This document shows, piece after piece, positions 2 through 52,658 of a stretch of 63,354 bases of DNA. Below the pieces are notes generated by a model, which saw nothing but the letters and a program-made list of their open reading frames with translations, was not told the origin of the DNA and did no database searches. The DNA lies in the NCBI GenBank assembly GCA_016179965.1, contig JACPCF010000025.1, positions 1 to 63,354 of the forward strand, read 5' to 3'. This stretch comes from Candidatus Rokuibacteriota bacterium. Its GTDB lineage: Bacteria; Methylomirabilota; Methylomirabilia; Rokubacteriales; CSP1-6. Each line of letters begins with the position of its first letter. The stretch's first letter is position 1. The position numbers and the translations under genes were made by a program.

Positions 2-496
2 CGCAAGGGGGCGTTTGGACAGAATCCCCTCTATCGTCTCCGGATCATCACCCGCAGCGGGCTTCGCGTATTCGCCGAAGGGATCGGGTTCTTTTCCTCA
101 GCCAAGGCGTCCCGGCTTCGACGAGGGTTGACGAAGGCGTGGGAGTTCAACGACGTGATTCCCTTCCAGGGCCCGCTGCTCCGAAAGGTCTACGGTGGGC
201 CGGGTAGGGGCAGCGGTCCCGGGCGTGGCTCGCGAGGAGCCAACCGCAAGCTCTATCGCGCGCTCCAGCATTACCTCCCTCGAGTCGCCGCTCCGCGGCA
301 CTTGACGCGCTCTCGGCTTGAGAAGCTGGCGGAAACACATCCCGCGATCGCGGATCACCCGACCCTCGCTTGGTTCCTGACGAATAACCAGTTCTATGAC
401 CAAGTCGCCAAAATCGAGGAGGGTGAGTCTCTCACCCTTGATCTGTCGGTACCGGCTAATAACACGTACGTGGCGAATGGCTTCGTGAGCCACAAC
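2..496 (+). mobile_element. Intein 1 of NrdJ (C-terminal part only)
   Basis: Only the last about 165 residues are inside the window. The segment ends with NNTYVANGFVSHN followed by extein Thr, the normal C-terminal splicing block (His-Asn / Thr +1). The splice point is between bases 496 and 497, just before the TRRGANMG extein. The upstream residues are basic and endonuclease-like, but the motifs needed to name the homing endonuclease are outside the window. Confidence 0.9.
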
Positions 497-3400
497 ACCC
501 GCCGCGGTGCAAACATGGGGATCCTGAAGGTGGATCACCCGGACATCCTGGAGTTCATCGAGTGCAAGCTGGACGGCGGGATCACCAACTTCAATATTTC
601 GGTGGCCGCCACCGATCGCTTCATGGACGCCCTGGAGAAGGGCGAGGAGTACGAGCTGATCAACCCTCACACCGGCGCCGTGGTGGGAAGGCTATCAGCG
701 CGCGAGGTTTTTGAACGGATCGTCAGAGCGGCCTGGCGCACGGGCGACCCGGGCATGGTCTTCCTCGACCGCATCAACCGGAGCCCCGCTAACCCGACGC
801 CAGAGGTGGGGCTGGTGGAGGCGACGAACCCGTGTCTGGCGGGAGACGCTCTTGTACCTACAGACCACGGGCTTCTGAGGATGGAAGATCTTGTCGCTCA
901 GTACGGCAATGGAGGTGTCGCAGTTCAGGTTGACTCTCGGATGCTGCCCTCGCAGCTCATGGTGTGGGAGGGGACCCACAACGTGCCGATTGCCTCTTAC
1001 AGTCATGGATGCCTTCCGATCAGCCGGGCCTTCTGCTCTGGGGAGCGGGAGACCGTCCGGGTTCGTACGAAAGCCGGCTTCGAGCTGATCTGCACTCCGG
1101 ACCACCGTCTAATGACCAACCGAGCATGGGTACGGGCCGGCGAGTTGAAGGTGGGGGTGGATCGGGTGTTTATCCAGAGTAACCCCGGAATGTTCGGCAC
1201 CGATTCGCGCCTCCCCTTCGAAGTGTCAAACGAAATCCGCGGTCGGAACGGTCGGGTGTATCGACATGATCTCCCGAACACCTGGAGTCAAGACCTCGGA
1301 GTGGTCCTCGGATGGCTCGTCGGCGATGGTTGGCTTCGGTCGGGAGACAAGAACTGTCGCGCGGGGTTCAGCTTCGGGGGCGATGATCTAGACATTCTCG
1401 AGCGAATCAAGACCGGCGTGAACCGCTGGTACGGCCGACCCGTCCATGCCGTGAGGCGACCGCGTGGCGTTTACCACCTTTCCTATCATGGGAAGTTTTT
1501 CGTCGAGTTCTTCCAGCGCCTGGGCGTACGGCCCGTCCCGGCAAACCGCAAGGTAGTGCCCGAAAGTCTGTTCTCGGCCCCACGGGAAGCAGTCGTTGGC
1601 TTCCTCCAAGGGCTCTTCACGGCCGACGGGACGGTGCGTGACAATCCCCAGAGCAATAGCTCGTGGATCGCTCTCACGTCCAAGAGTCGGGACCTGCTGC
1701 GGGGAGTACAAATCCTCCTGCTCAATTTGGGCATCAAGAGTCAAATCATGGACCGGTCCCGCCCTCCGCGAACGGGGCTCTTCTCGTACGAGACCGTGGG
1801 TGGGGTGAAGCGATCCTACGAGTCGGACGGTGTACTATTCGAACTGGGCATCTTCGGAAGATCTCGGGAGGTTTTCCGTCAGGAAGTCGGATTCCTGAAT
1901 GCCAAGCGTCAGCGGCTCGAAAACGTCCGCTACCGAGGATTCTACACTCAGAAGTTCAACGATACCGTCGTGGTTGTCGAGCCGGCCGGTGTGCGACCGG
2001 TCTATGACCTGACCGAGCCTCAGACCCACACGATGATTGCCAACGGGGTTGTAGTTCATCAATGCGGCGAGCAACCTCTTTTACCCAACGAAGCCTGTGT
2101 TGCCCCGGAGACGCGGATCACCACGGATCGGGGGTTGGAGACAGTGGCCGATCTCTATGCGCGCCAGCGACGGGGAGAGTCGATCCTCGTCGCAACCAAC
2201 CTCAACGGGAAAGGAATGCAGATCATCTTCCGCCCCGCCGCGGTCGTGAAGGTTGGGGTGAAGCCAACGGTTCGGGTCACTCTGACCAACGGTCAGCAGA
2301 TCCGCGTGACGGCGGATCACAAGATTCTGACCGAAGAAGGCTGGAAGGAGGCTGGAACGCTCGCACGAGAAGACCGAGTGCTCATCCAAACCAGCATGGC
2401 TGGCCCCCTCACCGTCACGAGTACTGACGGGGATCTCCAGCGCATGTTTGGATGGTTCACGGGCGATGGCTGGTTCACCGACGCCGTCGGGCTCACCTTC
2501 GGCCCAGCGGATGAATTGGCCTTCGAGCGCTTGGTGCCGGTCTGGCGCCAGTTCACCGGAAGCGCGACGAGAGTCCAGACCCAGGCGGCGACCATGGTTC
2601 GCTGCATCGGAACGGAGCGGGCCGCGGCGATCGCCGCCTTCAAGACCTACGGCTTCGAGCCCGGGCGAGGTCCCAAGAAGCGGATGCCGAAGTTCATCTT
2701 CACCGCGCCAAAAGAGGAGCAGATCCGGTACCTCCAGGGGCTCTTCGGCGCCGATGGCTCCAAGACGCACCGGAAACCCCAGGTCACCCTGAGTTCGGCC
2801 TCTTTGGAGTTGCTACGGGATGTTCAGCTGCTCCTCCTGAACCTCGGCATGCGGAGCAACATCAAGTATTATCCCCATCGCCCCACGGGCCGGGCTTGGG
2901 GGCAGGTCAAAGTGAACGGCGAGAGCTACCACCACTTCCTCGACCTCATCGGCTTCCCCCTGACACCCCAGAAGCAGGAACGCTGCGACCAATTCCCCTG
3001 GCAGCGGACCAAGCAGGATCGACTCGCAATCCCGGTCGCATCCGTGGTTCCGGACGAGGAGGTCGAGGTCTACGACGTCTCCGAGCCGGTGACCCATTCG
3101 CTGATCGCTGAGGGAATGATCGTCCACAACTGCAATCTGGGTTCCCTCAACGTCTCCAAGTTCGCCCGGCGGGCCGACAACGGCGAGTGGACCATCGACT
3201 GGGTGGAGCTGGAGCGGGTGGTGCGGCTGTCGGTGCGCTTCCTGGACGACGTGATCGAGATGAACCCGTACCCGCTGCCCGAAATCGACGCCACGGTCAA
3301 GTCCAACCGGCGGATCGGCCTGGGCATCATGGGCTGGGCGGACCTCCTCTTCATCATGGGCATTCCCTACGACAGCCAGGAGGCGCTGGACCTGGCCGAG

Positions 3401-5890
3401 CAGATCATGGCCTTCGTCAAGGAGCAGGGCCACGACCAGTCGGCCAAGCTCGCCGAGGAGCGCGGGCCGTTCCCCAACTGGTCGCGCTCCATCTACAAGC
3501 ACGGCCGCCCCATGCGCAACTCCACGGTAACCACGATCGCACCCACCGGGACGATCTCGATGATCGCCGGCTGCTCCTCCGGCATCGAGCCGATCTTCGC
3601 CCTGGCCTTCGAGCACCGGGTGAAGCAGCCCGACGGCGAGCGCGTGCTCCCCTTCGTGAACGAAGTATTCGAGCGGCTCGCCCGGGAGCAGAGCTTCTAT
3701 TCCGAGGCCCTCATGCAGGAAGTCCTCAAGCGCGGCTCGCTCCACGGGATTCCCGGCATGCCGGAGCGCGCCCAGCAGGTCTTCAAGACCTCCCACGAGA
3801 TCCCCTACGAATGGCACGTGCGGCATCAAGCCGCCTTTCAGATGTACACGGACAACGGGGTGTCGAAGTGCGTGACAGGGGACACGCTGATCTTCACCGA
3901 CCGAGGCATCTTGAGAATTCAAGACTTGTACCGGGGGGAATCCTCCGGTGCGTTCAGCCCGATCGAGCTAAAGGTGGCCGACTGGACAGGGTTGGAACCG
4001 GCTGACCTCTTCTACTTCGGCGGGAAGCGGGATGTTGTTGCCTTGGAAGCGGATCTCGGCTTCTCCCTCCGCGCAACACCGAACCACCGGCTTCGGGTGA
4101 TGGCGAACGGAGAGATTGTCTGGCGGCGGATGGATGAGATCAGGGTCGGGGATTCTCTGGTCGTCCCATACGGGTTCGATGTCTACGGCCATTTGCACGA
4201 CTTGGGGGCAATTTACGGAGCTCAGTACCGCCCGGCAGAGCGAACCAATGCCGTCCGACTTCAGTGGCCCAAGAAAATCACAACGGATCTGGCCCGGCTC
4301 ATCGGCTACCTCATCGCCGACGGCGGCTTCAACGAAAATCAGGTTATCTTTACGCAGAAGGACGATGCGGTCACCGAGGATTACCGACAGGTCATGCAAC
4401 GGCGCTTCGGCGTAGAGCCTCGGGTGGGTCTCGACCCACGCCGGGAGAATCTCAAGCAGGTGGTCGTCAACTCCCGGGATTTGATCGCCTTCTTCGCTGA
4501 CTATCTCGGGACCGGGGATCGGGCTGAAACCAAACGCACCCCTCGCTGCATTCTCGCCTCGGGACCCGAGGTGATGAAGGAGTATGTGCGTGGGCTGACC
4601 CTGGACGGTTATGTTAGCGAGCGGGGGCGCGTGGTTGTTCTCGGAACGGTCTCTCGCCAGCTCGCGGAGGAAGTCCAGGCTCTCCTCCTGAACCTCGGGA
4701 TCGTCGCCCGGTTGGAAACGAAGGGGATCCATTACGAGTATCGGCACGTCGAGAACCGCAAGGACGCCTGCTATGAGGTTGTGGTGCTCTCGAAATTCCG
4801 GCGGGCGTTCTTGGAGCGCATCGGCTTTGCCGAAGACCGAAAGCAGACCCGGGCAAGAAAACATCTTGGGCAGCAAAGCCATCCTGATACCCACTATGTC
4901 GTCCCGGGCGTGCGACCGCTGGCGGTGACTCTTGCCCGCGCAAAGATGGCGGAAGCCTCCTCCAGGAAGCTTCAGGACTGGCTCCACAGCTTCATGACGG
5001 CGGATGCAGAGATCACTGAAGAGACCATCATATGGCTACTGGACATTACACGGGAGCTGAAGGAAACCAGCGAATGGAAGACCCTTTCGTGTGTGGCGAA
5101 TCGGAAGGTCATGTACACCCCGGTCACGAGGCTCTGGAGTGACAAGGACGAGGTCTTTGACCTGCAGGTCCCCTCGACTCATTCCTTCATCACCAACGGA
5201 CTGATCAGTCACAACACCATAAACCTGCCCAACGCGGCCTCCGAGGAGGACGTCGCCAGCGCCTATCTCCTGGCCTGGAAGCTCAACTGCCTGGGGATCA
5301 CGGTCTTCCGCGACGGGTGCAAGGGGGATCAGGTGTTGAACGTCGGGATCGGGGCGAAGACGAAGAAGGAGGAGGTGGCGGCGCCGACCACCGGGCCGGC
5401 CGTGATCAAGCCGCGGCCCCACAGCCTCCACGGGCTCACGTACCGGATGGAGACGCCCATCGGCACCGCGTTCATCACGGTGAACGAGACGACCGACGGC
5501 GAGCCGTTCGAGGTCTTCGTCCAGGTGGGCAAGGGGGGCTCGGACACGATGGCGGTGGCCGAGGCCCTGGGGAGACTCATCTCCCTCGGCCTCCGCCTGC
5601 CGTCGCCGTTCTCAGCCGGGCGCCGGCTGGAGGAAGTGATCAACCAGCTCTCCCGCATCGGCGGCGGCCAGCCGACTGGCTTCGGGCCCTCGAAGGTGCT
5701 CTCGCTCCCCGACGCGCTGGCGCGCACCCTCGCCGAGTACCTCGGCCACGTGAAGCCGGACGCGGCGGAAGAGGGCAACGGATCTCGACCGCACCGGATC
5801 GGCGACCTCTGCAAGGAGTGCGGCCAGGCCACCTTTATCTACGAGGAGGGATGCAAGAAGTGCCTGTCGTGCGGCTACAACGAGTGCTGA
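2..5890 (+). CDS. nrdJ: Class II (B12-dependent) ribonucleotide reductase, intein-interrupted, 5' partial
   Basis: Reduces ribonucleotides to deoxyribonucleotides in the cytoplasm using adenosylcobalamin. The frame is open from base 2, so the TTG start at 128 in the ORF track is artificial and the 5' part lies outside the window. After removal of the inteins the exteins read TRRGANMG, NPCGEQPLLPNEACNLGS, PTGTIS and SKTINLPN, all class II/NrdJ landmarks. By homology with Thermotoga NrdJ, NPCGE holds the thiyl-radical Cys322 with Asn320 and Glu324, and the Cys of ACNLGS is redox Cys333. The C-terminus has a CxxC...CxxCG...C zinc-ribbon-like tail (LCKECG, CKKCLSCG) typical of the family. Extein pieces in the window are 112, 11, 246 and 224 residues. 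Inteins visibly use more A/T at third positions than exteins, which suggests separate acquisition. Confidence 0.96.
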   Translation, partial: RKGAFGQNPLYRLRIITRSGLRVFAEGIGFFSSAKASRLRRGLTKAWEFNDVIPFQGPLLRKVYGGPGRGSGPGRGSRGANRKLYRALQHYLPRVAAPRHLTRSRLEKLAETHPAIADHPTLAWFLTNNQFYDQVAKIEEGESLTLDLSVPANNTYVANGFVSHNTRRGANMGILKVDHPDILEFIECKLDGGITNFNISVAATDRFMDALEKGEEYELINPHTGAVVGRLSAREVFERIVRAAWRTGDPGMVFLDRINRSPANPTPEVGLVEATNPCLAGDALVPTDHGLLRMEDLVAQYGNGGVAVQVDSRMLPSQLMVWEGTHNVPIASYSHGCLPISRAFCSGERETVRVRTKAGFELICTPDHRLMTNRAWVRAGELKVGVDRVFIQSNPGMFGTDSRLPFEVSNEIRGRNGRVYRHDLPNTWSQDLGVVLGWLVGDGWLRSGDKNCRAGFSFGGDDLDILERIKTGVNRWYGRPVHAVRRPRGVYHLSYHGKFFVEFFQRLGVRPVPANRKVVPESLFSAPREAVVGFLQGLFTADGTVRDNPQSNSSWIALTSKSRDLLRGVQILLLNLGIKSQIMDRSRPPRTGLFSYETVGGVKRSYESDGVLFELGIFGRSREVFRQEVGFLNAKRQRLENVRYRGFYTQKFNDTVVVVEPAGVRPVYDLTEPQTHTMIANGVVVHQCGEQPLLPNEACVAPETRITTDRGLETVADLYARQRRGESILVATNLNGKGMQIIFRPAAVVKVGVKPTVRVTLTNGQQIRVTADHKILTEEGWKEAGTLAREDRVLIQTSMAGPLTVTSTDGDLQRMFGWFTGDGWFTDAVGLTFGPADELAFERLVPVWRQFTGSATRVQTQAATMVRCIGTERAAAIAAFKTYGFEPGRGPKKRMPKFIFTAPKEEQIRYLQGLFGADGSKTHRKPQVTLSSASLELLRDVQLLLLNLGMRSNIKYYPHRPTGRAWGQVKVNGESYHHFLDLIGFPLTPQKQERCDQFPWQRTKQDRLAIPVASVVPDEEVEVYDVSEPVTHSLIAEGMIVHNCNLGSLNVSKFARRADNGEWTIDWVELERVVRLSVRFLDDVIEMNPYPLPEIDATVKSNRRIGLGIMGWADLLFIMGIPYDSQEALDLAEQIMAFVKEQGHDQSAKLAEERGPFPNWSRSIYKHGRPMRNSTVTTIAPTGTISMIAGCSSGIEPIFALAFEHRVKQPDGERVLPFVNEVFERLAREQSFYSEALMQEVLKRGSLHGIPGMPERAQQVFKTSHEIPYEWHVRHQAAFQMYTDNGVSKCVTGDTLIFTDRGILRIQDLYRGESSGAFSPIELKVADWTGLEPADLFYFGGKRDVVALEADLGFSLRATPNHRLRVMANGEIVWRRMDEIRVGDSLVVPYGFDVYGHLHDLGAIYGAQYRPAERTNAVRLQWPKKITTDLARLIGYLIADGGFNENQVIFTQKDDAVTEDYRQVMQRRFGVEPRVGLDPRRENLKQVVVNSRDLIAFFADYLGTGDRAETKRTPRCILASGPEVMKEYVRGLTLDGYVSERGRVVVLGTVSRQLAEEVQALLLNLGIVARLETKGIHYEYRHVENRKDACYEVVVLSKFRRAFLERIGFAEDRKQTRARKHLGQQSHPDTHYVVPGVRPLAVTLARAKMAEASSRKLQDWLHSFMTADAEITEETIIWLLDITRELKETSEWKTLSCVANRKVMYTPVTRLWSDKDEVFDLQVPSTHSFITNGLISHNTINLPNAASEEDVASAYLLAWKLNCLGITVFRDGCKGDQVLNVGIGAKTKKEEVAAPTTGPAVIKPRPHSLHGLTYRMETPIGTAFITVNETTDGEPFEVFVQVGKGGSDTMAVAEALGRLISLGLRLPSPFSAGRRLEEVINQLSRIGGGQPTGFGPSKVLSLPDALARTLAEYLGHVKPDAAEEGNGSRPHRIGDLCKECGQATFIYEEGCKKCLSCGYNEC
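833..2062 (+). mobile_element. Intein 2 of NrdJ with LAGLIDADG homing endonuclease
   Basis: A complete 410-residue intein. It begins CLAGDALVPTDHG (block A, Cys1) and block B is CTPDHRLM. It has two dodecapeptide motifs, GWLVGDGW near residue 160 and GLFTADGTV about 100 residues later. It ends TMIANGVVVHQ before extein Cys. The last intein residue is Gln rather than Asn, a rare but known variant. It is inserted between NP and CGEQ, so its +1 residue is the cysteine predicted to carry the thiyl radical. Without splicing the reductase would be inactive. Confidence 0.95.
2096..3130 (+). mobile_element. Intein 3 of NrdJ with LAGLIDADG homing endonuclease
   Basis: A complete 345-residue intein. 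Block A is CVAPETRITTDRG and block B is RVTADHKILTEEGW. The endonuclease dodecapeptides are FGWFTGDGWF and GLFGADGSK, and the C-terminus is SLIAEGMIVHN before extein Cys. It sits only 11 extein residues (CGEQPLLPNEA) after intein 2. Its +1 residue is the cysteine equivalent to redox-active Cys333 of Thermotoga NrdJ. Length and blocks are those of a full splicing intein with an intact-looking endonuclease. Confidence 0.95.
3869..5215 (+). mobile_element. Intein 4 of NrdJ with LAGLIDADG-type endonuclease
   Basis: A complete 449-residue intein. It begins CVTGDTLIFTDRG and has block B RATPNHRLRVM. Endonuclease motifs are IGYLIADGGF and a weaker second one, GLTLDGYVS. It ends HSFITNGLISHN before extein Thr. 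It splits the conserved DNGVSK / TINLPNAA sequence. The weaker second dodecapeptide suggests the endonuclease may be decaying, but the splicing blocks look complete. Confidence 0.94.
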
Positions 5891-34668: not shown

Positions 34669-34747
34669 GACCATGCCGGCCGGACGCGCGAGCGGAGGCG
34701 AGCCTCCTCAGCGGGCACCCGAGCGGGTCGGCGGAGCCGACCCCCCA

Positions 34748-35593
34748 ATGCGAGGGTCGCGGGAGGTCGTCGTCGGAAAGGTCCGGATCGGAGGCGACAA
34801 CCCGCTGGCCCTCATCGCCGGCCCCTGCGCCATCGAGGACGAGCCCCACGCCCTGATGCTGGCCGAGCGGCTCGCGCGCGTCGCCCGGGACGCCAAGGTG
34901 CCGTTCATCTACAAGTCCTCCTACGACAAGGCCAACCGCTCCTCGGTGGACTCCTATCGCGGCCCAGGCCTCCGCCAGGGGCTCAGCATCCTTCGGCGCG
35001 TCCGGGAGACCGTCGGCTGCCCCGTGCTGTCGGACGTTCACGACGTCTCGGAGGTCGAGCCCGCCGCCGAAGTGCTGGACGTGCTCCAGGTGCCGGCCTT
35101 CCTCTGCCGGCAGACCGACCTCGTCCTGGCCTGCGGGCGCACGCGGAAGCCCGTGAACGTCAAGAAGGGGCAGTTCCTGTCGCCGCGGGAGATGGGGAAC
35201 ATCGTGGAAAAGCTCCGCTCCACTCAGAACGACCAGATACTGCTCACCGAACGTGGCACCACCTTCGGCTATAATAACCTGGTCGTGGACTTCCGAGCTT
35301 TTCAGATCATGCGGGAGTTCGGCTATCCCGTCGTCTTCGACGCGACCCACTCCCTGCAGCTACCCGGCGGCGAGGGGACCCGGTCGGGCGGCGAGCGGAA
35401 GTACGTCCCCGCTCTGGCCAGAGCAGCGGTGGCGGTTGGAATCGACGCATTATTCATGGAGATCCACGAAGACCCCGACCGGAGGCTGAAGGACGGCCGC
35501 CCGCTCTCCGACGGCCCGAACATGCTGCGCCTCGACGACCTCCCGCGGCTGCTGGCGGAGATCACGGCCATTCGGGCCGCCCTCGGCCGATGA
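34748..35593 (+). CDS. kdsA: 3-deoxy-8-phosphooctulonate (KDO-8-P) synthase
   Basis: Condenses phosphoenolpyruvate with arabinose-5-phosphate for lipid A inner core synthesis. 281 residues from ATG 34748, which matches family N-termini (REVVVGKVRIGGDNPLALIAGPC). The ORF track start at 34673 is about 25 residues too early. Motifs are KSSYDKANRSS, PVLSDVHD, VNVKKGQFLSP and VFDATHSLQLPGG. Cys in IAGPCAIED suggests the metal-dependent class, in contrast to the Asn of E. coli KdsA. The stop overlaps the kdsD start (ATGA). Confidence 0.96.
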   Translation: MRGSREVVVGKVRIGGDNPLALIAGPCAIEDEPHALMLAERLARVARDAKVPFIYKSSYDKANRSSVDSYRGPGLRQGLSILRRVRETVGCPVLSDVHDVSEVEPAAEVLDVLQVPAFLCRQTDLVLACGRTRKPVNVKKGQFLSPREMGNIVEKLRSTQNDQILLTERGTTFGYNNLVVDFRAFQIMREFGYPVVFDATHSLQLPGGEGTRSGGERKYVPALARAAVAVGIDALFMEIHEDPDRRLKDGRPLSDGPNMLRLDDLPRLLAEITAIRAALGR

Positions 35594-36561
35594 CGAGGGA
35601 CGACCGGCTCAAGCTGGCCGGGCGCGTCCTCAGGCTGGAGGCGGAGGGGATCCTCGGCCTGGTGTCCCGCCTCGACGCCCGGTTCCTGACGGTGGTGGAC
35701 CTCCTCCACGACTGCCGGGGACGCGTGATCGTCACGGGCATGGGGAAGTCCGGGCTCGTGGGCCGAAAGATCGCGGCCACGTTCGCCAGCACGGGCACCC
35801 CCGCCTACTTCCTCCACCCGGCGGAGGGGGTCCACGGCGACATCGGCATGGTGGCCCGCGACGACGTCGTCCTGGCCATCTCCAACTCGGGAGAAACGGA
35901 CGAGCTCCTCGCGATCCTCCCCCAGCTCAAGCGGCTCGGCGTGCCCCTCATCCTCCTGACGGGGACGCCCACGTCCACGCTGGCCAAGCAGTCCGACGTG
36001 GTGCTGGACGTGAGCGTGGCGGAGGAAGCGTGCCCGATGAACCTGGCCCCCACCTCCAGCACCGCGGCGGCGCTGGCCCTTGGGGACGCGCTCGCCATGG
36101 TCCTCCTCGATCTCAAGGGGCTCAGGCCGGAAGACTATGCGGCGCTCCACCCGCGCGGCGCCCTCGGTTGGCGGGCCCTGTTCAGGGTGGCGGACCTGAT
36201 GCACGCGGGCGAGGCCGTCCCCAGGGTCCACGAGGACGCGCCCATGGCGGAGGTGATCCGTGAGATGACCGACAAGCGCCTCGGCGTCACAACGGTGGTG
36301 GAGGCCACGGGGCGGCTGGTCGGGATCTTCACGGACGGTGACCTCCGCCGCGTCCACCTCAAGGACCAGCCGATCGCCGCCCTCAGGGCGCGGGACTGCA
36401 TGACCCGGTCGCCCAAGCTCATCGGGAAAGACGAGCTCGCGGCCAAGGCGCTCCAGGTCATGGAGTCCTTCGCCATCACCAGCCTCGTCATCGTGGACGA
36501 GGCCCAGCGCCCCCTGGGCATCATCCACCTGCACGACATCCTTCGCGCCAAGATCGTCTGA
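35590..36561 (+). CDS. kdsD: Arabinose-5-phosphate isomerase
   Basis: Converts ribulose-5-phosphate to arabinose-5-phosphate, the substrate for KdsA. 323 residues. An N-terminal SIS domain (VTGMGKSGLVGRKIAATFASTGTPAYFLHPAEG; AISNSGETDELL; AEEACPMNLAPTSSTAAALALGD) is followed by a CBS pair from about residue 205. Translationally coupled to kdsA. The usual next gene, kdsC (KDO-8-P phosphatase), is absent, as only 61 bases separate it from lptC. Confidence 0.96.
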   Translation: MTRDDRLKLAGRVLRLEAEGILGLVSRLDARFLTVVDLLHDCRGRVIVTGMGKSGLVGRKIAATFASTGTPAYFLHPAEGVHGDIGMVARDDVVLAISNSGETDELLAILPQLKRLGVPLILLTGTPTSTLAKQSDVVLDVSVAEEACPMNLAPTSSTAAALALGDALAMVLLDLKGLRPEDYAALHPRGALGWRALFRVADLMHAGEAVPRVHEDAPMAEVIREMTDKRLGVTTVVEATGRLVGIFTDGDLRRVHLKDQPIAALRARDCMTRSPKLIGKDELAAKALQVMESFAITSLVIVDEAQRPLGIIHLHDILRAKIV

Positions 36562-36622: not shown

Positions 36623-37195
36623 ATGGCCTTTTCGCCCCAACGGCTGTCACGCTGGATCCTCACGGGGGTGACCCTCTTCGCCCTCTTCGTGGTGGGGGTC
36701 CTCGTCATCCGGGGGTACCTGACCCGCCCCCCCCATGACCTTCCCCCGAGCAAGGCCGACTACCGCATCAAGGAGGTCCGCCTCCAGGAACAGGGGAGCG
36801 GCAAGGTTCAGTGGCGGCTCACGGCCGACCAGGCCGAGGTCTTCGAGCGCGAGGGGAAGACCGTCATGCGGAAGGTGACCGTCACGATCCAGGACCCCGA
36901 CCGGACCTGGACGGTTACCGGCGAGGAGGGCGACCTCCTGGACGCCACCAAGAACGTGGAAATCCGCAAGAACGTCGTGCTGGTCTCGAGCGACGGCCTC
37001 CGGCTCGAGACCGACCGCCTCTCCTGGCAGGCCAAGGAGCGACGCCTCTGGACCAGCGAACCGGTGACGATCTTCCGCCAGGGCGCCATGGTGAGGGGCC
37101 AGGGACTGGAGGCCTGGATGGCGGATGAGCGGACCCAGGTGAAGGGGCGCCTCCGGGCCACCTTCTCCGAGCGAGCCGGGGAGCGGGCGCGGTGA
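36623..37195 (+). CDS. lptC: LptC-like LPS export bitopic protein
   Basis: 190 residues. One N-terminal membrane helix (WILTGVTLFALFVVGVLVIRGYL) anchors a periplasmic beta-jellyroll (YRIKEVRLQEQGSGKVQWRLTADQAEVFE, ATKNVEIRKNVVLVSSDGLRLETDRLSWQ) of the LptC/OstA type. It accepts LPS from the LptBFG transporter and passes it to LptA. A TATTAG box lies 13 bases before ATG. It overlaps lptA by GTGA. Sequence similarity to E. coli LptC is low, and the assignment rests on architecture and position. Confidence 0.88.
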   Translation: MAFSPQRLSRWILTGVTLFALFVVGVLVIRGYLTRPPHDLPPSKADYRIKEVRLQEQGSGKVQWRLTADQAEVFEREGKTVMRKVTVTIQDPDRTWTVTGEEGDLLDATKNVEIRKNVVLVSSDGLRLETDRLSWQAKERRLWTSEPVTIFRQGAMVRGQGLEAWMADERTQVKGRLRATFSERAGERAR

Positions 37196-37797
37196 GGGGG
37201 CAGGGGCTCCTCGCTCTGGCGCTCCTCGGAGCCCTCCTGGGCCCGGCGGTCCCGCCATTCCCCGGTGACGCTCCGGCCCAGCCCGCCAAGCCGAAGAAGC
37301 CGGCGGCCCGGTCGGACGCCCCCGCGCCCAAGCCGGAGGAGGACGAGAAGAATCAGCCCGTGACCGTGGACGCGGACCAGATGGAGAGCCTACAGAAAGA
37401 AGGGTTGGTCATCTTCACCGGCAACGTGGTGGCGCGTCAGAATAACTCGGTTCAGTACGCCGACCGGACTGAGGTGTACTTGGACCAAAAGGGAGAGCGC
37501 ATCGTTCGGACCGTCTCGGTGGGCAACGTCAGGATCATCACCAAGGACTGCCGCACCGGCACCGCGAAGCGGGCGGAATACTACGACGCCGAGCAGCGCG
37601 TCGTGCTCATCGGCAACGCGCGGGTCTGGCAGGAGGACAACGTGGTGACGGGCGACCGGATCACGATCTACCTGGCCGAGGAGCGGAGCGTGGTCCAGAG
37701 CGGCAACCAGGAGCGCGTGAAGGCGGTGTTCTACCCGAAATCGCAGGAACGCCGGAGCGACAGGCCGAAGGTGTCGGGCCCCTTCCCGTGCCCGTGA
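37192..37797 (+). CDS. lptA: LptA/OstA periplasmic LPS bridge protein
   Basis: 201 residues with an N-terminal signal ([25 protein letters not shown]), a Pro/Lys-rich linker and the OstA-like domain [44 protein letters not shown]. LptA oligomers bridge the periplasm for LPS. It is GTG-started and overlaps lptC. lptB follows in 7 bases. Confidence 0.92.
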
Positions 37798-37804
37798 GCC
37801 TCCC

Positions 37805-38527
37805 ATGGAAGGCCTGATCGCTCAGGGGCTGCTCAAACGCTTTGGCGCGCGGCGTGTCGTTGATCACGTCGGCTTCGACATCCAGCGGGGCGAAGTGGTC
37901 GGCCTCCTCGGCCCGAACGGGGCGGGGAAGACCACATCCTTCTACATGATGGTGGGGCTCCTCAAGCCCGACGGCGGGGGGATCTTCCTCGAGGGCGAGG
38001 AGATCACCGACCTGCCCATGTACAAGCGCTGCCGGATGGGGATCGGGTATCTCCCCCAGGAGTCTTCCGTGTTCAGGAAGCTGACCGTCGAGGAGAACCT
38101 GCTGGCGATTCTCGAGACCCTGGACCTCTCGCACAGCGAGCGGATCGGCCGGCTCCGGGAGCTGCTCCAAGAATTGGACCTGACCCCCCTCGCCCGCCAC
38201 AAGGCGTTCACGCTGTCGGGCGGGGAGCGGCGGCGCCTGGAAATCACGCGCGCGCTCGTCACGTCGCCCCGGTACCTCCTCCTCGACGAGCCGTTCACCG
38301 GGATCGACCCGATCGCGATCGGTGACATCCAGGAGATCGTCGCCCGGCTCCGGGAGCGGGGCATCGGCATCCTCATCACGGACCATAACGTGCGCGAGAC
38401 ACTCGCCATCACCGATCGCGCCTACATCCTCTACGACGGAAAGATCCTCGTGTCGGGCACCGCCATGGAGCTGGCCCAGAACCCCACCGCCCGCGAGATT
38501 TACCTGGGCGAGAAGTTCTCGCTCTAG
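37805..38527 (+). CDS. lptB: LPS export ABC transporter ATPase
   Basis: 240-residue ATPase powering LptFG. Walker [11 protein letters not shown]-loop [18 protein letters not shown], signature [15 protein letters not shown], Walker B YLLLDEPF and H-switch ITDHNV are all intact. The LptB subtype is shown by FRKLTVEEN and [11 protein letters not shown]. Its membrane partners are on the opposite strand at 49.3-51.6 kb. lptCAB-rpoN-hpf order is conserved. Confidence 0.97.
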
Positions 38528-49258: not shown

Positions 49259-51565
49259 CTACGTTCGGGCGCGCAGGAAGAGCGAGACGCCGAGCCCCGC
49301 GAACACGATGTTGGGGGTCCAGGCGGCCAGGAGCGGCGGCAGGAGATCCGCCTTGGCGAACGAGAGCGCCAGCGAGCTCACCAGCCAGTATCCCATCGAG
49401 ATCGCGATCGCCAGGGCGATGCCGATGACGCGGCCGCCCCGCGGCCACTGGAGCGCGAAGGGAATCGCCACCAGCACCATGATCACGTGGATCAGCGGGA
49501 AGGAGAGCTTCGAGTAGAGCTGGACGAGGTACTTGCCGACCTGGTGGCCGCTCTCCTGCAACTTGATCAGGTAGGCCCGGAGCTCGCGAAAGCTCATCGT
49601 CTCCGGGGGCTGCTGGGTCCGCGTGAAGTCCTCGAGCGATTCCGGGAGCTCGAGCGAGCTCAGCGTAAACGGCACGGCCTCGACGCTGGTGTCGCTCCCA
49701 AATTCCCGGAAAAAGCCGCGTTCGAATTCCCAGCCATTCGCGGTCCAGTGAGCCCGTCCCGCGTCCAGCCGGTTGAGCAGCCGGTAATTCCGGTCGATCT
49801 CGAGCACCGTCACCCCGTCCATCTGCTGGCCGACGGGATCCACCAACTCCAGCCGGAAGAAGCGCGAATCCGAGCTCCGGTACCAGATCTGGGTCCGTCG
49901 CTGGAGGTGGCGCGGGAGCTCGCCCCGGATCTTGATCCGGTCCACCTCTTCCCCCTTCGCGTTCAGCACGGGAAGCACCGTCTCCTGGAATGCCACCGAG
50001 GCCAGGCTGACCGCGAAGGCGAGCAGCAGGATCGGCAGGCTCACGCGGTAGAGGCTGACGCCGGCCGCTTTGAGCGCCGTGAGCTCGTGCTGGCGGCTCA
50101 GGGCCAGAAAGAGGAAAATCGTGGAGACCAGGACGATCACCGGGAAGCCCTCGTAGAGCCCTGCCGGGAGCCGATAGACGAAGTGCTCCAGGATGTAGAG
50201 GAGAGGCGGCTTGACGCGGAGATACCGGTCCAGGGTCTGGAAGAGGTCCACGACGACGAAGAGCGCCGCCCCGACGCTGACGCCGAACCCCACGTACATG
50301 AGGAACTGGCGGACCAGGTAGCGATCCAAGAGGTGACTCGAATCCCGCGGTCCCCGCAGGCGTGGAGGTCGCCGCCGGGAGATCGGGCGGCCCCGGGCCG
50401 GCGCCCGCGCCGCGAGCCGGTCCCGGAACCGGAGCACGGCGTTCACCCACGCCGGCGGCAGGTCCGTGGTGCTGAAGCGCAGCAACCCCAGCCCGACGAG
50501 GCCGAACACCACCGTCGGGGTCCAGACCGCCACCGCCGGCGCCAGGCGGCGGCTCAGCGCGACGCCCTCGAGGGAGTTCAGCGTGAGGTAGTAGCCGACC
50601 AGGATGCCCAGGCTCCCCACCAGCGCCACGCCCCACCCGCCCCGGTGCGCCCGGATGCCCAGGGGGAAGCCGACCATGACGAAGATGAGGGCGGCGACGG
50701 GGAAGGCAAAGCGCTTGTGGAACTCCAGGAAGTACGGCGTGGTGATCTGCCCTTCACGGTCGAGGTAGCGCGCGGTTCGGAGCAGCTCGAACAGGGGCAG
50801 GTTCTTCTCGGGCTTGTCCAGCCGCGGGGCGCTCTTGAACGGGGTCTCGACGGAGAGGTTCATGTCGTACAGCCCGAAGGTCGTGTAGCGGTAGCGGGAT
50901 GAGGTGTCGGTGTCCGACTCGTGGATCGCCCCGTCGATGAGCCGGAGGGTGATGCGCTGGTTCTCCTCGTCGGTGAAGAGCCGCCCCTGGCGGGCCGTGA
51001 CGATCCGCGAGAGCTTCGGGTCCCGCTCGTCGGCCACGAGGAGCCCGCGGAGCCCCACCTGGGAGGCCGAGACCTCCTCCACGTAAATCACGAACTGGCC
51101 GAAGGCGGTGTTGAACACCCGCTCCTTGATCCCCGTCGAGGCCCGGCTCTGGAGAATCTTGAAGAGCTGTCGCTGGAACGCCCTGTTCGACGCCGGATTC
51201 AGGGCCAGGGTCAGGACGGCGGTGAGGGTCGTCACGGCCATGGCCGCGACCAGGAACGGCACGAAGAGGCGCAGCGGGCTCACGCCCGAGGCCTTCAGCG
51301 CCACGACCTCCAGATCCGAGGCCAGGCGGCCGGCGGCCAACAGGACCGCCACCAGGAGGGCCATGGGCAGGGTGTGGGCCAGGAACGACGGCAGCATGTA
51401 CACCAGGAGCTGGAGCACGAGGTGGAAGGGCACGCCCTTCGTGACCACCAGATCCGTGAGGCTGTAGATCCGGTCGATCGTGAGGAAGAAGGTGAAGAGC
51501 CCCACCCCGACGAGGAAGGGGTAGAGGAGCTCCTGAAAGACGTAGCGATCCAGCAGCCGGGTCAC
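49259..51565 (-). CDS. Fused LptF-LptG LPS export permease
   Basis: 768 residues from a GTG whose first base is 51565. Two complete YjgP/YjgQ permease units occur in one frame. The first (about 1-370) starts TRLLDRYVFQELLYPFLVGVGLF and has GRLASDLEVVALKASGVSP (LptF-like). After a basic linker (RGRPISRRRPPRLRGP) the second starts HLLDRYLVRQFLMYVGFGVSVG and has LSRQHELTALKAAGVSLYR (LptG-like). Each has six predicted helices, three on each side of a periplasmic jellyroll. Normally these are two adjacent genes. With LptB (37.8 kb) they form the LPS extractor. The GGAGG site lies 6-8 bases before GTG. Confidence 0.93.
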   Translation of the reverse strand: MTRLLDRYVFQELLYPFLVGVGLFTFFLTIDRIYSLTDLVVTKGVPFHLVLQLLVYMLPSFLAHTLPMALLVAVLLAAGRLASDLEVVALKASGVSPLRLFVPFLVAAMAVTTLTAVLTLALNPASNRAFQRQLFKILQSRASTGIKERVFNTAFGQFVIYVEEVSASQVGLRGLLVADERDPKLSRIVTARQGRLFTDEENQRITLRLIDGAIHESDTDTSSRYRYTTFGLYDMNLSVETPFKSAPRLDKPEKNLPLFELLRTARYLDREGQITTPYFLEFHKRFAFPVAALIFVMVGFPLGIRAHRGGWGVALVGSLGILVGYYLTLNSLEGVALSRRLAPAVAVWTPTVVFGLVGLGLLRFSTTDLPPAWVNAVLRFRDRLAARAPARGRPISRRRPPRLRGPRDSSHLLDRYLVRQFLMYVGFGVSVGAALFVVVDLFQTLDRYLRVKPPLLYILEHFVYRLPAGLYEGFPVIVLVSTIFLFLALSRQHELTALKAAGVSLYRVSLPILLLAFAVSLASVAFQETVLPVLNAKGEEVDRIKIRGELPRHLQRRTQIWYRSSDSRFFRLELVDPVGQQMDGVTVLEIDRNYRLLNRLDAGRAHWTANGWEFERGFFREFGSDTSVEAVPFTLSSLELPESLEDFTRTQQPPETMSFRELRAYLIKLQESGHQVGKYLVQLYSKLSFPLIHVIMVLVAIPFALQWPRGGRVIGIALAIAISMGYWLVSSLALSFAKADLLPPLLAAWTPNIVFAGLGVSLFLRART

Positions 51566-51599
51566 CGCGGGCCTCCGCGTTCTGTTGTACCATATCCCC

Positions 51600-52658
51600 G
51601 TGAAGCGCCGGATGGTCTTTGGACTCCTCGTCGCGTGGCTCGCCCTGGGGACCTCGGCGGCCGGGACCGAGCGCGATGTCCCGTCCGGCAGGCTGGAGCG
51701 CTTTCGCGCCATCGCGGCCGCCGGGCTGGGGGCGCTGGAGCTCTCGGGACACGAGCCCGCCCCCGAGAGCATCGGGGAGATCTACGCCCTCCTCGACGCC
51801 GAGATTGTGGACAACCTCGCGAGTGGCAGCCTCTTCGCCTCGGAGGGATTTCTCCAGGAGCGGCTCGACGCCTTCAACGAGGCCTGGGGCGGAACGGCGT
51901 TCCGGGTGCTGGCGCTCCGGCCGAGCGGCCTCACCGTCGGCGCGTTTCAGCTCTCGCCGGGCGGATGGGGGAACAGCGTCCGCGTCTACGGACGGAGCGG
52001 GTCCGGGGCCGCGCTGATCCGCGCGATCCAGCGGGAGGGAGTGCCGGTCCTCCACGAAATGCCCTCGACCCGGGGGGGAGATCCCCAATTCCTCGTCGCC
52101 TGGGTCGGCCCCCAGTCGAGCCGTGGCAGCACCGGTCTTCGCCTGGAACTCTGGCGGAGGCAGGGAACGTCCATCAGCCTGGCCTGGTCCACCGACGCGG
52201 TGACAGAGGGAGGCCTGCTGGTCGGCCGCTTCTCCCTGGGCGCGCAGCAGGCCTCGTTCCGCTACGAGGTGAGATACCCGGGCTGGAAGCCCGGCTGCGA
52301 GGGCCAGACCGAGCACGAAGACCTGTACCGCTACGACCCCGGCGCGGAGACGTTCGTCCTGGCCCGGCGGCAGGTCGTGAACGGCTGGCATCGGGAGTTT
52401 CACGCCTTCCTCGCCAGCTTTCTGTCGGCCCTGAGCGCGCGGAACGAGCGGGCGCTGGCGGGGCTGGTGCCGCCCATCCTCCGCCCGAGGCTCCCCGCGC
52501 GCTTGGAGGCGGACCTCGCCTGCGATGAGGCGGTGGGAACGCCGCCCACCTCCGTCGCCGTGGCCGCCGTATCGCCGGACGACCGTCGTCCCTGGAGCCT
52601 GGTGTTCCGCCGGGCGGCGGGGGGGTGGCGCCTCGCCGCGGCGGCTCCCGCCGAGTGA
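51600..52658 (+). CDS. Hypothetical secreted protein
   Basis: 352 residues with a signal peptide (RRMVFGLLVAWLALGTSAAG). The mature region is a mixed alpha/beta protein without recognised motifs. A stretch YEVRYPGWKPGCEGQTEHEDLYRYDPGAETFVLARR suggests a beta-rich domain. GTG 51600 lies 34 bases from the divergent lptFG start, with a shared TACCATA -10-like sequence that reads in both directions. Its coupling to an LPS exporter hints at an envelope role (inference). Confidence 0.75.
   Translation: MKRRMVFGLLVAWLALGTSAAGTERDVPSGRLERFRAIAAAGLGALELSGHEPAPESIGEIYALLDAEIVDNLASGSLFASEGFLQERLDAFNEAWGGTAFRVLALRPSGLTVGAFQLSPGGWGNSVRVYGRSGSGAALIRAIQREGVPVLHEMPSTRGGDPQFLVAWVGPQSSRGSTGLRLELWRRQGTSISLAWSTDAVTEGGLLVGRFSLGAQQASFRYEVRYPGWKPGCEGQTEHEDLYRYDPGAETFVLARRQVVNGWHREFHAFLASFLSALSARNERALAGLVPPILRPRLPARLEADLACDEAVGTPPTSVAVAAVSPDDRRPWSLVFRRAAGGWRLAAAAPAE

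Follow-up and report, generated by a model that had tools for sequence, protein, structure and literature searches.

In E. coli, lptF and lptG lie at 4.487 Mb with a one-base overlap, a place distinct from that of lptCAB. The solved LptF/LptG relatives that we found are all of 355–375 residues, and none of them is fused. LPS enters LptB2FGC at the interface of LptF-TM5 and LptG-TM1, the site of the LptC helix, and docking on LptB is the role of a Glu in the coupling helix (PMC10094684). Here we analyse a window of 63,354 nucleotides (contig JACPCF010000025.1 of a Candidatus Rokuibacteriota bacterium) in which the two genes had been predicted to be fused. We find that the fused LptFG is genuine and shared across its clade. 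It represents a variant of an essential machine that is otherwise ordinary, and we found no description of such a fusion in the open-access literature.

The fused gene and its linker

The frame (Table 1) opens with a GTG at 51565–51563, a start found at the same codon in the four closest relatives, and its sole stop is at 49261–49259. Two matches of the protein to the Pfam LptF_LptG profile cover positions 1–352 and 1–353 of 353, and the two full permease units that had been proposed are thus matched end to end. To identify the halves, the protein was cut in two and each part was scored against the NCBIfam equivalog cut-offs. Alone, the N-terminal half gives 242.3 bits on the LptF model TIGR04407 (cut-off 230) and 153 on the LptG model, while the C-terminal half gives 254.2 bits on the LptG model TIGR04408 (cut-off 240) and 99 on the LptF model. 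With a single frame, no stop between the halves and both equivalog cut-offs passed, the original prediction of LptF and LptG in one polypeptide is borne out. Since one open frame encodes what are otherwise two separate polypeptides, we class the protein as a variant rather than as a plain LptF/LptG member. The genome is metagenome-assembled (2.99 Mb, 166 contigs, 92% complete), and a search of it with the Pfam LptF_LptG profile returned the fused gene as the sole LptF/LptG locus; at this completeness, therefore, no separate LptF or LptG partner was found.

Table 1. Positions in the window of the fused gene, its parts and its partner genes
Feature	Position	Strand	Basis
Fused lptF-lptG gene	49259..51565	−	768 codons + stop, GTG start; Pfam LptF_LptG twice
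Shine-Dalgarno-like GGAGG	51572..51576	−	6 nt 5' of GTG start; read from sequence
LptF half, residues 1–363	50477..51565	−	TIGR04407; coupling-helix Glu kept
Cytoplasmic basic linker, residues 364–411	50333..50476	−	Charge, hydropathy, coding-type GC3, no conserved internal start with Shine-Dalgarno site
LptG half, residues 412–768	49262..50332	−	TIGR04408; coupling-helix Glu kept
kdsA and kdsD-type genes (KDO synthesis), upstream of lptCAB	34673..36561	+	NCBIfam KDO8P synthase and KpsF/GutQ subfamily, both over cut-off
lptC	36623..37195	+	TIGR04409, 93.6 bits (cut-off 38); single N-terminal TM helix
lptA	37192..37797	+	TIGR03002, 96.1 bits (cut-off 71.7)
lptB (ATPase)	37805..38527	+	TIGR04406, 350 bits (cut-off 240)

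The linker, bounded by the last residue of TM6 (R363) and the first of the LDRY motif (L412), measures 48 residues and contains 12 basic and 3 acidic ones; the basic linker of about 30 residues described at the outset matches its Arg-rich core. Across 33 homologues the linker spans 44–57 residues and is always Arg-rich and poor in Asp/Glu. Its middle is poorly conserved, and its end, (S/T)(S/T)H-x-x-DRY, is semi-conserved in most of them. For the linker in the window, the GC content at the three codon positions is 0.77/0.71/0.88; the means of 32 loci are 0.76/0.70/0.94, and the mean GC3 equals that of the flanking LptF and LptG halves. Substitutions at the three positions among the five closest sequences number 190/152/212, a test that is weakly informative because the linker is fast-evolving. 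In shuffles the chance of an open linker was about 0.5–0.8 each, and since the DNA is of 76–86% GC an open linker alone is weak evidence of fusion. The evidence for fusion is the shared frame together with the missing lptF stop in every readable member of the family.

Hydropathy and alignment to E. coli are consistent with a topology in which each half has six TM helices and a periplasmic domain separating TM3 from TM4, although TM2 merges with its neighbours. Since each half is predicted to have six helices and both its ends in the cytoplasm, as judged from family-averaged hydropathy and homology, the linker is placed on the cytoplasmic side, where it had been expected; its charge agrees, and hydropathy reveals no hydrophobic segment within it. 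An AlphaFold2 model of the fused protein, built with five sequences, was too poor to use (mean pLDDT 40, pTM 0.25).

One may ask whether the chain, once made whole, is cut by a protease within the Arg-rich linker to give an ordinary LptF/LptG heterodimer. An exposed, basic and fast-evolving linker of unconserved sequence would suit such processing. However, no conserved cleavage motif is seen among the 33 linkers, yet their length and charge are kept, and split genes, which occur in sister families, would serve equally well. We therefore regard cleavage as improbable. It is highly improbable that LptG also has an independent start inside the linker, so that fused protein and free LptG are both made. 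The residue just before DRY is encoded by TTG in the window and by ATG or GTG in five relatives, but none of these codons is accompanied by a Shine-Dalgarno-like site, and most of the 33 homologues have no start codon there (STHIIDRY). Throughout the linker, a start codon with a Shine-Dalgarno-like site is absent from all homologues but one, where it lies at an unshared place.

The junction in relatives and its origin

Full-length fused homologues with 55–78% identity are present in most of the GTDB family, including four Candidatus Rokubacteria genomes at 75–78%. A first set comprised 36 same-family genomes, among them the window genome. In 34 of these the match runs through the linker without a change of frame; one of the remaining two retains just the last 66 residues, and the second, 64% complete, gives no match. 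In 15 additional family members the two halves share an open frame and their start offsets are multiples of three, and the in-frame fusion is present in every same-family genome with a readable junction (49/49). The frame breaks of G007 and G024 are inside LptG and LptF, away from the linker. A stop and a new start between the halves, named beforehand as the observation that would speak against a fusion, are thus absent from the same-family genomes with a readable junction. That a stop was lost or the frame shifted through faulty sequencing or assembly is conceivable for a window from a metagenome-assembled genome in 166 contigs. This reading is refuted by the relatives, since the junction recurs in frame in dozens of assembled genomes of about 24 genera with varied in-frame linker lengths; we give it next to no credence.

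The survey covered genomes of the window's class (families f1–f9). The fused gene is also found in one genome each of families f4 (G038) and f3 (G037), of the same order; in G036 (f2) the gene is truncated before the junction and is uninformative on fusion. In the five families f5–f9 lptF and lptG are separate adjacent genes, with lptG starting, in most cases, between 14 nt before the lptF stop and 67 nt beyond it, and mostly in another frame. The plasmid records yielded split relatives only.

Several loci depart from this pattern. In L043 (G049, family f8) lptF and lptG share a frame but LptG lacks its initial portion, and in congeners the genes are split; the locus is either an atypical fusion distinct from the others or a product of faulty assembly. 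Six family members (G020, G029, G069, G070, G073 and G076) have two fused loci each, which may be due to gene duplication or, where bins are more contaminated, to a mixture of strains. G015 carries, beside its fused gene, a second, divergent split lptF/lptG-like pair (L085, C93:6908-9084) with about 25–28% identity, and the GC of both loci is similar.

In a tree of the separated halves, the fused F halves cluster as one clade adjoining split LptF, and the fused G halves likewise form a single clade next to split LptG; a long, well-supported branch parts the F and G sides. The tree was midpoint-rooted and the E. coli rows were disregarded, the one retained having a very long branch. Since one Pfam family covers both halves, the protein could be imagined to be a single permease half duplicated in tandem and moving another lipid. 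This reading has a negligible probability given that the halves pass different equivalog cut-offs, that in the tree each joins its split counterpart of the class, on opposite sides of the well-supported branch, and that lptCAB, KDO genes and lpxC are present.

Split genes occur in the sister families and in E. coli, and on this ground we regard the split state as ancestral. The tree supports a single fusion event in place, which probably occurred near the base of the Rokubacteria order, before the divergence of f1 and f4. The lptF stop would have been lost once, within an existing lptF-lptG operon, to give the fused gene. LptF of the split relatives already has a hydrophilic C-terminal tail of 19–40 residues, so the linker is most simply read as the old LptF tail plus a short join.

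The gene order in f1 is metK-ahcY-UPF0182-(lptFG)-hypothetical-valS-birA-coaX-guaA, and in f8 and f9 metK-ahcY is followed by lptG-lptF on the opposite strand. The position of lptFG away from lptCAB and on the opposite strand, which the original prediction had pointed out, is correct; it is not a noteworthy trait, being the usual arrangement, and split relatives too keep lptF-lptG beside metK-ahcY. A hypothetical gene (51600–52658, plus strand) is oriented divergently to lptFG, about 34 nt separating the two start codons. Its product is probably secreted and has no Pfam or NCBIfam match; its homologues (36–68% identity) are kept between lptFG and valS across the family.

Conserved residues, partner genes and a proposed mechanism

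The coupling-helix Glu (E. coli LptF E84, LptG E88) is invariant in each half among 24 fused and 11 split sequences. At the positions of E. coli LptG TM1 K34/K40/K41 the LptG half in the window has D/D/R. The split relatives also lack K34 (mostly Asp) and K40, with R at 41 mostly kept, so these residues are not defining for the wider family; the lysines are an E. coli observation and not a family-wide rule.

The genome carries lptA, lptB and lptC along with genes for lipid A and KDO synthesis, the gene set of LptB2FGC, with lpxC on another contig. A match to lptD was not found in the window genome (92% complete). LptD is present in both same-genus relatives and in 51 of 60 relatives, and because congeners have it we ascribe its absence to incompleteness or divergence. 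Elsewhere in the window, at 128–5890 on the plus strand, a ribonucleotide reductase chain is interrupted by inteins with LAGLIDADG endonuclease domains, matching Pfam Intein_splicing in three stretches and LAGLIDADG_3 in four.

The fused protein is predicted to function in LPS export. We consider it very likely that LptFG is a single-chain permease within an ordinary LptB2FGC extractor, a covalent F:G pair with one origin in place. Each half would contribute six membrane helices and a periplasmic beta-jellyroll, and the halves would pair with each other within one chain. Two LptB ATPases would dock onto the two coupling helices, LptC would join at the LptF-TM5/LptG-TM1 gate, and LPS would be handed to LptC, to LptA and then to the outer membrane. 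The linker would act as a flexible cytoplasmic tether derived from the old LptF C-terminal tail, securing 1:1 F:G pairing and co-insertion; a fixed F:G stoichiometry, which the original prediction had put forward, may reasonably be regarded as the benefit of the fusion. By connecting LptF TM6 with LptG TM1 at the cytoplasmic side, the linker is attached to a gate helix; with at least 44 flexible residues it should not hinder movement of the gate. A bolder suggestion, which we think unlikely, is that the single-chain LptFG, on which the whole order would depend, has an active linker: attached to LptG TM1, this basic segment would tune gate opening or LptC residence instead of serving as a passive tether.

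Implications and comparison with known systems

LptF and LptG act asymmetrically in a much-studied essential envelope machine, and a natural single chain that has become fixed throughout an order indicates that the F:G pair can be joined covalently, here next to the entry gate for LPS and LptC. The fused protein offers a ready-made construct for structural or single-molecule work, in which half-specific mutations and changes of linker length could be made at a certain 1:1 stoichiometry. The fusion is also a clean shared trait marking the Rokubacteria order. Surveys that count two genes may score the fused gene as one missing, and public databases may well contain automatically named double-domain LptFG proteins, perhaps from other phyla as well. 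Both lptF and lptG are reported as apparently lacking in Acidobacteria (PMC8871954), which are a possible place for fused forms.

The split lptF-lptG operons of the same class (f5–f9) have the same gene order and adjacent genes, and those of f8 and f9 also lie beside metK-ahcY; unlike the fusion, they have a stop codon and a second start codon where the halves meet, and the frame usually changes there. A fused two-half permease is also known in iron-hydroxamate import, namely FhuB. It resembles LptFG in carrying two ABC permease halves in one chain, and differs in being part of an importer, in its other fold and in belonging to an unrelated family. With LptF and LptG of the LptB2FGC complexes of E. 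coli, Pseudomonas and the other solved structures, the fusion has in common the domain families, the coupling-helix Glu and the partner genes. At K34 and K40 of E. coli LptG TM1, in contrast, the fused LptG half has Asp or Asn, and whereas the known LptB2FGC structures contain LptF and LptG as two separate chains, the Rokubacteria protein is one.
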